DNA of 33,965 nucleotides from Mycobacterium sp. (lineage in GTDB: Bacteria; Actinomycetota; Actinomycetes; Mycobacteriales; Mycobacteriaceae), in assembly GCA_020438865.1 (NCBI GenBank), contig JAGQTU010000043.1, positions 1-33,965 of the forward strand. Direction: 5' to 3'. The position numbers were made by a program, and so were the translations under genes. Below the pieces are notes generated by a model. The model was not told the origin of the DNA. It saw nothing but the letters and a program-made list of their open reading frames with translations, and searched no databases. This document shows, piece by piece, positions 31,251-33,845 of the stretch. Positions within the stretch are counted from its first letter, which is position 1. The number at the start of each line of letters is the position of its first letter.

Positions 31251-33599
31251 CTACAGCTTGGTCAGCGGCGCGTGGTTGTGCATGAGCTTGACCCGGCCCG
31301 CGCTGCCGAAGTCGATCAGCGACATCGCCGACTCCCCCATCCCGGAAACCTCTTCGACCCGGCCCAGGCCGTACTTGTCATGGGTGACCCGATCCCCGGC
31401 CTCCAGCACCAGCAGCGGTCGCTTGCCCGCCCCGCCGCTGCGGGTCGGCGACGGGCGCGGCGTACCGAACATGCCACCACCACCGGTCGAGAACCGGCCG
31501 GGAGCGCTGAACGACGGCGTGGGATCGGTACGCCGCCAATCGATCAGCTCTTCGGGGATCTCGCGCAGGAACCGCGATTCCGGGTTCAGCATGGGCTGAC
31601 CCCACGATGACCGGACCTTGGCGCGGCTGAGATACAGCCGCTGCCGGGCGCGGGTGATGCCGACGTAGGCCAGCCTGCGCTCCTCGGACAGCTCGGTGGG
31701 GTCGCCCAGCGCCCGCATGTGCGGGAACATGCCGTCCTCCCAACCCGTGACGAAGACGACGGGGAACTCCAGGCCCTTGGCGGTGTGCAGGGTCATCAGG
31801 GTCACCACGCCGGAGCCGTGCTCGGGCAACTCGTCGGAGTCGGCGACCAGCGACACCCGCTCCAGGAACTCGGCCAGTATGCCGGTCTGCGGCACGTCCT
31901 CGTCGTCGTCCTCGGTGTCGGTATCCGATTCCAGTGCAGCCGCGTTGGCCCGGTCGGTGCTGAATTCGTGTGCGACGCTGACCAATTCGTTCAGGTTGTC
32001 GAGTCGGGCCAGATCCTGCGGGTCGCTGGAAGACTCCAGCTCGGTGCGATATCCGGTGCGGTCGAGCACCGCCTCGACCAGGTCGCCGAGTTCGTCGTCG
32101 AGCCGGCCGCGAAGGTCGTCGAGCAGGTTGACGAAACTCGCGATCGCCTTCTCCGAGCGGGTGTTCAACATCGGAACCTTGCCCTCGGCGGCCGCGCTCA
32201 GCGCATCGGCGAAGGTGCTGCCGGTGTTCTCGGCGTAGACCGCGACGCACGCCTCGGCGCGGTCACCGATGCCACGCCGCGGAGTGTTCAGGATGCGCCG
32301 TAGGCTGACCGTGTCGCCGGGATTGTCCAGCACCCGCAGATAGGCGACGATGTCGCGAATCTCCTTGCGTTCGTAGAACCGAACGCCGCCGACGACCTTG
32401 TACGGGATGCCGGCCCGGATGAAGACCTCCTCCAGGGACCGCGACGAGTTGTTGGTCCGGTAGAACACCGCGACATCGTTGTAGCTGATCTCCCCGCGGT
32501 CGGCCAGCGCGTCGATCTCCCCGGCGACGAACCGGGCCTCGTCGTGTTCGTTGTCGGCGACGTAGCCGACGATCAACTCCCCGTCGCCGGCGTCGGTCCA
32601 CAGCCGTTTCTCCCGCCGGCCGCTGTTGCGGGAGATCACCGAGTTGGCCGCGGACAGGATGTTCTGGGTGGACCGGTAGTTCTGCTCGAGCAGGATGGTG
32701 GTCGCGTTGGGGTAGTCGCGCTCGAAATCCTCGATGTTGCGGATCGTCGCGCCGCGGAACGCGTAGATCGACTGGTCGGCGTCGCCCACCACGCACAACT
32801 CGCTGGGCGCCACCTGGTCGGCGTCGGTGTCGCCGTGCCCGACGAGTTCGCGGACCAGGACGTACTGCGCATGGTTGGTGTCCTGGTACTCGTCGACCAG
32901 GACGTGCCGGAAGCGCCTGCGGTAGTACTGCGCGATCTGCGGGAAGTTCTGCAGCACCGCGACCGTCTCCCCGATCAGGTCGTCGAAGTCCAGCGCATTG
33001 GCCGCGCGAAGCCGGCGCTGGTACTCGCCGAAGACACCGGCCACGGTGCGAGCCAGCTCGTCGGACTCCGGGGTCAGCGCGGCGAGCGCCTGTTCGGGGT
33101 CGATCAGCTCGTTCTTGAGGTTGGAGATCGCATTTGCCAGCAGCCGCGGCGAGTACCGCTTGACGTCCAGGCCCATGTCCTTGCCGATCATCAGCAGCAG
33201 GCGGCGCGAGTCGTCGGCGTCGTAGATGGAGAAGTTCGAGTTCAGACCGGGCAGCAGCGAGGCCTGGTTGCGCAGGATGCGGACGCAGGTGGAGTGGAAC
33301 GTCGACACCCACATGTTGCGGGCCCGCGGACCCACCAGCGCCACCACCCGTTCCCGCATCTCAGCGGCGGCCTTGTTGGTGAACGTGATGGCCAGGATCT
33401 GACCCGGCCCGACGTCACGGGCGGCCAGCAGGTAGGCGATGCGGCGGGTGAGCACCGCGGTCTTGCCCGACCCGGCGCCGGCCACGATCAGCAGGGGGTT
33501 GCCCTCGTGCAGCACGGCCTGACGCTGCTGCGGGTTCAGTCCGTCGAGCAGTTCGGCGGCCTCGGCCGGTGGCTTGTAATCCGTCACGTGCACAGTCAT
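31251..33599 (-). CDS. uvrD1: UvrD1/PcrA-type superfamily 1 DNA helicase
   Basis: This 782-aa 3'-5' helicase acts in nucleotide excision repair and transcription-coupled repair. Motif I is GAGSGKT (41-47), Ia ITFTNKAAAEM, II DEYQD (236-240), III GDADQSIYAFRGA, IV EQNYRST, V TLMTLHTAKGLEF and VI YVGITRARQRL. The C-terminal about 60 residues (GDRVTHDKYGLGRVEEVSG) form the Tudor-like domain that binds RNA polymerase in PcrA/UvrD proteins. A Cys/Ser-rich linker is absent, so it is UvrD1 rather than a RecB-like fusion. ATG at 33599 (MTVHVTDYKPP) is used; a longer frame upstream has no support. TAAGTT (minus strand, 33615-33610) may be a -10 giving a leader of only a few bases. Confidence 0.95.
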   Translation of the reverse strand: MTVHVTDYKPPAEAAELLDGLNPQQRQAVLHEGNPLLIVAGAGSGKTAVLTRRIAYLLAARDVGPGQILAITFTNKAAAEMRERVVALVGPRARNMWVSTFHSTCVRILRNQASLLPGLNSNFSIYDADDSRRLLLMIGKDMGLDVKRYSPRLLANAISNLKNELIDPEQALAALTPESDELARTVAGVFGEYQRRLRAANALDFDDLIGETVAVLQNFPQIAQYYRRRFRHVLVDEYQDTNHAQYVLVRELVGHGDTDADQVAPSELCVVGDADQSIYAFRGATIRNIEDFERDYPNATTILLEQNYRSTQNILSAANSVISRNSGRREKRLWTDAGDGELIVGYVADNEHDEARFVAGEIDALADRGEISYNDVAVFYRTNNSSRSLEEVFIRAGIPYKVVGGVRFYERKEIRDIVAYLRVLDNPGDTVSLRRILNTPRRGIGDRAEACVAVYAENTGSTFADALSAAAEGKVPMLNTRSEKAIASFVNLLDDLRGRLDDELGDLVEAVLDRTGYRTELESSSDPQDLARLDNLNELVSVAHEFSTDRANAAALESDTDTEDDDEDVPQTGILAEFLERVSLVADSDELPEHGSGVVTLMTLHTAKGLEFPVVFVTGWEDGMFPHMRALGDPTELSEERRLAYVGITRARQRLYLSRAKVRSSWGQPMLNPESRFLREIPEELIDWRRTDPTPSFSAPGRFSTGGGGMFGTPRPSPTRSGGAGKRPLLVLEAGDRVTHDKYGLGRVEEVSGMGESAMSLIDFGSAGRVKLMHNHAPLTKL

Positions 33600-33618
33600 G
33601 TCCGGAACCAACTTACCG

Positions 33619-33638
33619 CTGTCCGGCGACAGTTTTTT
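33619..33638 (+). terminator. Terminator-like palindrome with T6 between uvrD1 and the leader ORF
   Basis: CTGTC-CGGC-GACAG followed by six T is a small intrinsic-terminator shape on the plus strand. It lies upstream of the leader ORF and its T-run merges with the candidate -35 (TTGCAC, 33637-33642). It could stop antisense transcription emerging from uvrD1, or it could be a protein-binding palindrome. Confidence 0.4.
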
Positions 33639-33666
33639 GCACAAGACCGGCGCGTGGTGGCACACT
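33637..33666 (+). promoter_or_regulatory. Putative leaderless promoter of the leader ORF
   Basis: TTGCAC (33637-33642), 18 nt, then CACACT (33661-33666) resembles a promoter whose start would fall on the GTG at 33674. The -10 is poor (three of six), and there is no Shine-Dalgarno before the GTG, so a leaderless start is inferred. Confidence 0.35.
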
Positions 33667-33673
33667 CATTTTC

Positions 33674-33736
33674 GTGCTCACTGCACCGCAGCGATTTTTC
33701 TACGGGTACCGGATCGCGGTACCCGTGGAGGCATAG
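33674..33736 (+). CDS. Candidate aromatic leader peptide, 20 aa
   Basis: GTG at 33674 opens a 20-codon frame ending at TAG 33734-33736. Its centre reads RFFYGYR: TTT TTC TAC GGG TAC, so four of five codons in a row encode Phe or Tyr. It lies 109 nt before the chorismate mutase start, exactly the enzyme whose pathway leads to Phe and Tyr. An RNA hairpin begins right after the first Tyr codon. It lacks other protein-like features and is best read as a sensor peptide. Confidence 0.6.
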   Translation: MLTAPQRFFYGYRIAVPVEA

Positions 33737-33783
33737 CTGCTCGAACCCGAGAGCCCCGCGGTCCGCATCCGGATCCGGGGCTC
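33704..33783 (+). promoter_or_regulatory. Candidate transcription attenuator of chorismate mutase
   Basis: Region 1 GGGTACC (33704-33710) pairs perfectly with region 2 GGTACCC (33718-33724), loop 7 nt. Region 3 GAGCCCCG (33751-33758) pairs perfectly with region 4 CGGGGCTC (33776-33783), loop 17 nt. Region 2 extended, CCGTGG (33723-33728), can instead pair with CCGCGG (33756-33761) of region 3 (six pairs, one G-U), which excludes both other hairpins. This is the classical three-way choice. The stretch after region 4 is only moderately T-rich. Confidence 0.5.
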
Positions 33784-33787
33784 GTCT

Positions 33788-33832
33788 CTTGTGTGAGGCC
33801 CGGACCGAATGCGACCAGAACCCCCACACGAG
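33788..33832 (+). promoter_or_regulatory. Possible Shine-Dalgarno-sequestering helix
   Basis: CTTGTGTG (33788-33795) can pair with CACACGAG (33825-33832), eight pairs with one G-U, covering the start of the GAGGAG ribosome-binding site of chorismate mutase. The loop of 29 nt is long, so stability is uncertain. Confidence 0.35.
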
Positions 33833-33845
33833 GAGAAGCGAAGCG

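Follow-up and report, generated by a model that had tools for sequence, protein, structure and literature searches.

What is the function of a short open reading frame (ORF) and two hairpins that lie between divergent genes? In the stretch of DNA analyzed here (the window: 33,965 nt of Mycobacterium sp., assembly GCA_020438865.1, contig JAGQTU010000043.1), these elements separate a uvrD-type helicase gene from a gene for a chorismate mutase (CM) of the Rv0948c type (Table 1). Because the two genes are transcribed outward, a terminator between them would serve the 3ʹ end of neither. CM lies on the route to Phe and Tyr, as the entry to their synthesis, and the mycobacterial enzyme is controlled via a complex with DAHP synthase. 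We propose that the interval encodes an attenuator of the monofunctional CM gene, in which ribosomes control transcription in response to Phe and Tyr, and on sequence evidence we put the probability of this reading at about 0.87. A conserved attenuator would add gene-level control of CM, and would explain why a divergent intergenic region is kept across a large bacterial group.

The end of the contig cuts the CM gene, which accounts for a score against NCBIfam TIGR01808 (47 bits) below the cut-off of 52. A complete relative (L105) exceeds the family cut-offs and matches the Rv0948c structures (2QBV and others; E = 2.9e-37).

The leader ORF comprises 20 codons and a stop (GTG at 33674, TAG at 33734–33736), with TTT TTC TAC GGG TAC at 33695–33709. 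An earlier note on this DNA had described the ORF with the right coordinates and sequence. The start codon stands shortly behind a -10-like hexamer that reads CACACT, CAGACT, CAAACT, TACACT or TAGACT in relatives. In the 104 loci of the genus and family set, the set in which this distance was counted, the start codon (GTG in 99, ATG in 5) follows the hexamer by 6 nt (75 loci) or 7 nt (29 loci); starts were sought 5–8 nt downstream of the hexamer, and for boxes lacking TGG a distance of 6–7 nt was built into the pattern. A start codon that close behind a -10 element implies a leaderless message. Hence, the leader ORF is probably leaderless, the hexamer spacing predicting an RTG at the transcription start. 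The same conserved spacing speaks against a transcription start downstream of 33736, which the earlier note had named as a refuting observation. PMC4633059 reports that an RTG at the transcription start is both required and enough for leaderless translation in mycobacteria. Of 133 upstream regions that have a box, 125 passed a crude test for TTG or TTT near the -35 distance, a count that has no control set beside it. A consensus scan for promoters and terminators found no σ70-type promoter in the window by its own rule. On the + strand at 33618–33640, between the start of the helicase gene and the putative leader promoter, a terminator-like hairpin (33618–33633 in the scan) is followed by a T run; this segment may instead overlap the -35 region.

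Table 1. Features of the interval and its flanking genes, in coordinates of the window
Feature	Positions	Strand	Basis or remark
UvrD/PcrA-type helicase gene (uvrD1 position)	31251..33596	-	NCBIfam PcrA TIGR01073, 921.7 bits against a cut-off of 911.2
Possible -35 element TTGCAC (spacing to the -10-like hexamer, 18 nt)	33637..33642	+	sequence; putative
-10-like hexamer CACACT, preceded by TGG	33661..33666	+	sequence comparison with relatives
Leader ORF, GTG start, MLTAPQRFFYGYRIAVPVEA then stop, predicted leaderless	33674..33736	+	sequence; frame and peptide conserved
Control codons Phe-Phe-Tyr (TTT TTC TAC)	33695..33703	+	codon conservation in relatives
Arm 1	33697..33711	+	15-bp hairpin with arm 2; compensatory changes
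Arm 2	33717..33731	+	pairs with arm 1; predicted alternative partner of arm 3 once arm 1 is occupied
Predicted antiterminator, upstream strand	33716..33732 (33716-33719, 33723-33728, 33730-33732)	+	predicted fold of truncated RNA; core 33723-33728/33756-33761, predicted extensions 33716-33719/33763-33766 and 33730-33732/33753-33755
Arm 3 (5ʹ strand of the putative terminator hairpin)	33751..33765	+	fold; compensatory changes
Predicted antiterminator, downstream strand	33753..33766 (33753-33755, 33756-33761, 33763-33766)	+	predicted fold of truncated RNA
Arm 4 (3ʹ strand of the putative terminator hairpin)	33770..33783	+	fold; compensatory changes
Interrupted U-rich tail GTCTCTTG	33784..33791	+	4 U of 8
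Shine-Dalgarno-like AGGAG of chorismate mutase	33831..33835	+	sequence; putative
Chorismate mutase, codons 1–40 before the contig ends	33846..33965	+	Pfam CM_2, 27.1 bits against a cut-off of 27

The leader is well conserved in the genus. Of 198 same-genus genomes, 196 have a CM_2 match. From the matches listed, we took 60 loci in which the CM match covers the first part of the profile, as it does in the window; the leader played no part in this choice. Among these listed matches, FFYGY precedes CM in 47 of 60 loci, and a close variant (FSYGY, FLYGY, FFDGY, FCYGY, FFNGY, FFHGY or FPHGC) does so in 8 more, which bears out the earlier expectation that relatives keep the aromatic codons. No motif was obtained in the other five of the 60 (L039, L044, L088, L084 and L092); in L039 the element is cleanly deleted and CM follows immediately after the promoter, and L044 and L088 have altered leaders.

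Removal of identical sequences reduced 171 upstream regions to 152, of which 105 fit the motif pattern and 104 also gave a box and a start. The leader is in frame in all 104, as had been expected of relatives, at 11 different start-to-FFY distances from 15 to 69 nt (21 nt in 77 loci), and the frame was part of no search pattern. Long in-frame insertions are tolerated in these 104 loci, and no frameshifts were seen. Of 105 leaders, 92 have Phe at codon 2 (TTC 66, TTT 26) and 93 have Tyr at codon 3 (TAC 84, TAT 9); the Phe at codon 1, the preceding Arg and the following Gly were fixed by the pattern, and their constancy proves nothing. Codon 2 lies outside most of the helix formed by arms 1 and 2 (hairpin 1:2), so pairing does not explain the Phe there. 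In L042, L049, L054, L055, L066, L072, L074, L089 and L183, additional in-frame sequence separates the start codon from FFY. The insert in L042 has an inverted repeat without mismatches (CCCCGGACCAC / GTGGTCCGGGG), which may be an additional hairpin.

Named records, taken as the best 80 of 524 candidates, gave 72 distinct loci, some of them from the same genomes as the 60 above. In this set, 43 of 72 loci have the motif and 29 do not. The leader is present in records titled Mycobacterium, Mycolicibacterium, Mycobacteroides, Mycolicibacter and Mycolicibacillus, all within the best 80 of 524, and a diverged RFPSGY form occurs in Rhodococcus spongiicola and Prescottella. The 29 loci without the motif are mainly from Nocardia; the others are three Williamsia-like loci, Millisia, Rhodococcoides trifolii, Rhodococcus ruber and four losses of mycobacterial type (L129, L139, L142 and L146). 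In Nocardia loci (e.g. L152, L164, L165 and L167), CM is preceded by a -10-like hexamer and by an ATG ORF of ~23 codons that looks leaderless; this ORF has no aromatic run, and the sequence downstream differs. Williamsia L125 and L128 have no leader, and the GTG of CM lies 7 nt behind a -10-like hexamer, such that CM itself appears to start leaderless.

How far does the element extend beyond the genus? A model built on FFYGY leaders (R1), the source of our order-level loci, has matches with E up to 1e-3 in 349 of the 396 genomes of the genus, a small number of these matches being weak, and in 322 of 361 good genomes. In the order, it matches 128 of 249 genomes and 40 of 68 genera, with 27 of the 128 belonging to the window's genus. 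We examined 45 order-level loci (L254–L298) from the 101 non-genus genomes, hand-picked from the better scores. A leader, both hairpins and a downstream CM reading frame are present in 44 of the 45; these 44 span six families besides the window's own (f2, f4, f8, f11, f14 and f16), and CM was identified by Pfam in 2 of them and by pattern and reading in the rest. The one exception, L298, is from the window's own family, has neither leader nor chorismate mutase, and is a false R1 match. Examples of order-level leaders are MSARQFYYGYRPPVPVSG, MRHDAFRFFYGNRAPAPVDA and ..RFFYGYRIPVPDVRVS. At least 2 of the 3 residues of the aromatic triple are aromatic in 43 of the 44 leaders (the register of L278 was set by eye). 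The fourth aromatic codon is Tyr in only 24 of 44, with changes to N, I, T or H; the leader tails in other families also differ (APVIA, VPVVAG, VSSVV).

Outside the order, at class level, each of the seven loci that were translated (L329, L332, L333, L335, L336, L337 and L340) has a short ORF with Phe/Tyr codons before hairpins, and CM lies downstream in all seven, by Pfam in 3 of 7. Five of the seven come from one genus group (g110) that looks like Streptomyces. Among the other loci of the 15 viewed, L334, L338, L344 and L345 have CM by pattern, and L339, L341, L342 and L343 have a leader-like ORF. A separate check of 13 class-level loci returned ten with no leader or CM, L304 (L298 again), L300, which has a leader and is the same as L329 with its CM, and L299, a mycobacterial locus from the genome of L180 that has lost the terminator. 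Since many class-level matches of R1 and R2 are ordinary hairpins, the totals of 50/296 and 129/296 are not counts of attenuators. The earlier note had framed the element as mycobacterial. The leader is indeed found in mycobacteria, but it is not limited to them (44 of 45 order-level loci and 7 of 7 class-level loci). On these comparisons, we regard the element as a real, conserved and functional-looking attenuator that is more widespread than previously claimed.

The RNA of the interval is predicted to fold strongly: the segment 33660–33800 reaches -76 kcal/mol, against a mean of -50.5 (sd 4.1) for shuffled sequences (z = -6.3; 0 of 200 shuffles equal it). That relatives conserve the element is better evidence than the fold that it is real. 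Both hairpins described in the earlier note are present, but their extent had been understated. Hairpin 1:2, given there as 7 bp, folds as 15 consecutive pairs around a loop at 33712–33716. Hairpin 3:4 (arms 3 and 4) was noted at 33751–33758/33776–33783; these 8 pairs are continued by 6 more at 33760–33765/33770–33775, to give 14 bp.

Do the arms of these hairpins change in a compensatory way? Alignment A2 was made from 102 leaders, 90 of them distinct; L101, L176 and L180 were excluded for lack of a matched terminator end. In the 90 sequences, pairing holds in 96.9% of the cells of 1:2 and in 91.6% of those of 3:4. Changes within 1:2 include A-U to G-C in 5 sequences of one clade and G-C to A-U in 2 sequences. 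Much of 3:4 is invariant in A2, and hence uninformative on covariation. Alignment A3, in which the order was added, has 58 sequences, 57 of them distinct. In A3, 93.6% of cells are paired, as opposed to 27–47% when the arms are slid. Double changes occupy 57 cells against 20.9 in shuffles, and the covariation score is 0.199 against 0.107, neither value being reached by any of 500 shuffles; kinship among the sequences inflates these counts. Two further measures differ less from shuffles: nine pairs have double changes, a number equalled by 5 of 500 shuffles, and there are 22 further pair types against 19.7, which 48 of 500 shuffles reach. Considered separately over the 57 sequences, 1:2 is paired in 91.4% of cells, with double changes in 6 of 11 pairs, and 3:4 is paired in 96.7%. 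At three positions of 1:2 pairing often fails, in 25, 10 and 14 of the 57 sequences. Near the base of 3:4, a pair switches between A-U and C-G (28 and 20 of 57, with 9 unpaired), and one position of A3 shows U-G, A-U, U-A and C-G. Hairpins 1:2 and 3:4 covary across the order, as had been predicted of the arms; covariation for the alternative pairing of arms 2 and 3 (2:3) is weak. Two loci, L176 and L180 (genomes G065 and G102), retain the leader ORF (FFYGY and FIYGY, respectively), and their 3:4 hairpin is lost or broken.

The main rival explanation concerns the output of the switch. A stalled ribosome could act via Rho-dependent termination, or via access to the CM ribosome-binding site, in place of intrinsic termination at 3:4, with the same sensing of codons. 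The interrupted U-run of the mycobacterial tail favors this view, as does the consensus terminator scan, in which 3:4 of the window was not called. In PMC1262725, rho-independent terminators are said to be few in mycobacteria and Rho is suggested for the cys leaders; PMC13236596 cites M. smegmatis cysteine genes as being under translation attenuation. However, we judge such an output improbable, because 3:4 is conserved and covarying, including the A-U/C-G switch near its base. Moreover, the U content is alike in the two sets (a mean of 5.1 in the 9 nt after GGGGC in the genus set, and 4.9 in the order set), and some other families have unbroken U-runs after the stem (e.g. CGGGGCGTTTTT). Against control of access, the CM start of the window lies 62 nt beyond 3:4, and the hairpins do not take in the CM ribosome-binding site. 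The locus is also a test case for whether terminators with interrupted U-runs work in mycobacteria.

A second alternative is that the leader encodes an arrest peptide. In TnaC-type systems, the nascent chain stalls the ribosome when the free amino acid binds; here, a nascent FFYGY...VPV peptide would stall it on binding of free Phe or Tyr. Conservation of the leader peptide within the genus is consistent with this, but we consider it very improbable. In L127 and L104, G-C is replaced by A-U in 1:2: Gly is kept (GGG to GGA), and a downstream Pro becomes Ser or Phe, with a compensating change in arm 1. The changes in L127 and L104 are probably one event. The pair is kept as Pro changes, which indicates that the arm is conserved rather than the downstream peptide. 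The residues after the aromatic run follow pairing and not peptide, which speaks against an arrest peptide, and the differing tails of other families and the replaceable fourth aromatic residue point the same way. Scarcely credible is the reading of the element as a structured RNA (a riboswitch or a protein-binding site) with a strand open by chance and a leader ORF of no role, since despite the strong fold the lengths are in frame only (104 of 104 loci, 11 lengths), the aromatic codons are kept outside the helix, no conserved loop is evident in the wide alignment, and an Rfam search with E up to 10 gave 7 matches, all below their gathering scores.

How would a Phe/Tyr-responsive attenuator work at this locus? 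With transcription starting at or beside the GTG or ATG, a ribosome would load at once on the leaderless leader ORF. Where charged Phe-tRNA and Tyr-tRNA are ample, the ribosome would reach the stop and cover arm 2, leaving arm 3 free; 3:4 would then form, and transcription would stop before CM. Where the tRNAs are uncharged, a ribosome stalled on Phe-Phe-Tyr would cover arm 1 and free arm 2, which would pair with arm 3 before arm 4 exists, allowing CM to be transcribed. In the absence of translation, 1:2 and 3:4 would both form and transcription would end. Four of the features looked for in an attenuator were clearly found: a conserved short ORF, a cluster of end-product codons, a hairpin (1:2) adjoining the control codons, and the corresponding placement of the stop. 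The leader and its switchable hairpins very probably serve to turn CM on only when Phe or Tyr run short, as far as sequence can tell. The attenuation reading put forward in the earlier note is supported by the aromatic codons, the frame and the covariation of 1:2 and 3:4, and none of these checks refuted it.

The geometry of the leader fits this scheme in most loci. A ribosome's footprint extends ~12 nt ahead of its A-site codon. We estimate from this footprint that a stall on any of the first three aromatic codons would free arm 2, and that a stall on the fourth would cover it; the fourth codon is the one that varies in other families. The distance from the stop to arm 3 is 13–19 nt in 103 leaders and 19 nt in the window, so that, given the same footprint, a terminating ribosome can cover arm 2 and not arm 3. 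In 15 of the 103 leaders the distance is only 13–14 nt, and in two of the 44 order-level leaders it is 9 and 11 nt; at these short distances, a terminating ribosome might touch arm 3.

The 2:3 antiterminator is plausible, and is the least secure part of the model. The pairing described in the earlier note, which corresponds to the core in Table 1, is present, but with arm 1 covered and arm 4 unmade it is predicted to be longer than described. In folds without arm 4 and with a ribosome over arm 1, the arm 3 core is sequestered with P > 0.5 in 103 of 103 leaders at three ribosome positions (mean P 0.83–0.85); with arm 2 shuffled, the mean is 0.60 and P > 0.5 is still obtained in 67%. For the 44 order-level leaders, mean sequestration is 0.71 against 0.54 in simple shuffles (higher in 40 of 44), and the mean minimum free energy (MFE) is -21.3 against -16.4 (lower in 38 of 44). 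On A2, 94.4% of 2:3 cells are paired, compared with 29–54% when slid; a single pair has double changes (3 sequences), and shuffles reach the observed values in 25 to 495 of 500 cases. An arm-swap test for coevolution of 2:3 gave 31/55, native arms being worse than swapped arms in f4, f8, f11 and Rhodococcus. With arm 4 present and arm 1 covered, 3:4 is still favored (mean P 0.86 to 0.99 for the four aromatic stalls in 99 leaders); the window is an exception, with P = 0.12 for 3:4 when the stall is on the first Phe. Since 3:4 usually wins once arm 4 exists, antitermination by 2:3 must be kinetic.

Attenuators of related design are known. In enterobacterial pheL-pheA, a Phe-rich leader peptide and alternative hairpins precede pheA, which encodes a fused CM-prephenate dehydratase. 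The unit in the window shares the Phe-rich leader and alternative hairpins before a gene whose product includes chorismate mutase. In contrast to pheL-pheA, its CM is monofunctional, its leader is predicted to be leaderless, and its control codons mix the two amino acids (Phe-Phe-Tyr); kinship in sequence was judged by the Rfam scan only. The enterobacterial attenuator is mentioned in PMC11802643, which, together with PMC4046766, also describes aroR-aroF of Corynebacterium glutamicum (Neshat 2014), where a Phe-Tyr-Phe leader is reported to respond to limitation of Phe and not of Tyr. As far as these sources extend, aroR is the nearest described case, an actinobacterial aromatic-codon leader before an aromatic pathway gene, but it precedes aroF (DAHP synthase) and not chorismate mutase. 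A quick screen of the window's genome found no aromatic leader before the DAHP synthase found there or before prephenate dehydratase.

Among mycobacterial systems, the ilvB1 attenuator, shown in PMC13236596, likewise combines codons for pathway products (branched-chain amino acids) in an upstream ORF with an intrinsic terminator, but it involves other amino acids and another gene; that paper mentions further predicted attenuation loci, shown in its Extended Data Fig. 5. The mycobacterial poly-Cys leaders (Canestrari 2020, as cited in PMC9094748 and PMC13236596) are also leaderless short ORFs with pathway-product codons. Unlike these leaders, the element described here has conserved and covarying hairpins, whereas conserved terminator hairpins were not observed before the cys operons according to the accessible part of PMC1262725. 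In Streptomyces lividans, leuL, trpL and ilvL are leaderless leader peptides before amino-acid genes (PMC8079986); the text at hand names eight leaders (Leu 2, Trp 2, Ala, Ile, Met and Thr), none of them for Phe, Tyr or chorismate mutase. Chorismate mutase is not among the genes named with upstream ORFs (nirA, leuA, ilvB and others) in the text of PMC4974804 as available, and the portions of PMC9094748 and PMC12125101 at hand name no chorismate mutase leader. The 2005 comparative study (PMC1262725), in the part available, saw no conserved RNA structures before Phe and Tyr operons in Actinobacteria; hence, the proposed attenuator would fill a stated gap. The earlier note knew of no described Phe/Tyr attenuator for mycobacterial CM, and we found no report of this element in the literature searched, from which most subscription papers, supplements and figures were out of reach.

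What was the origin of this element? We think it likely that one ancestral leaderless Phe/Tyr attenuator of CM predates the split between the Mycobacteriales type and the Streptomyces type, that its hairpins were rebuilt many times by compensatory change with the aromatic codons kept, and that Nocardia, Williamsia and single mycobacteria have lost or rewired it. If so, these bacteria would have in it their general switch for Phe/Tyr, one that earlier comparative work missed. The locus would also supply a natural Phe/Tyr sensor with many sequence variants.

Five loci (L039, L129, L139, L142 and L146) lack the leader and the hairpins, and have CM close behind the same -10-like hexamer; they represent a natural experiment for loss of attenuation. 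Three loci (L130, L139 and L148) come from records whose titles do not suit them: a record titled Kitasatospora arboriphila has a Williamsia-like locus, and records titled Bifidobacterium breve MAG and Acidobacteria MAG have loci of mycobacterial type. These records are probably mislabelled or contaminated assemblies.
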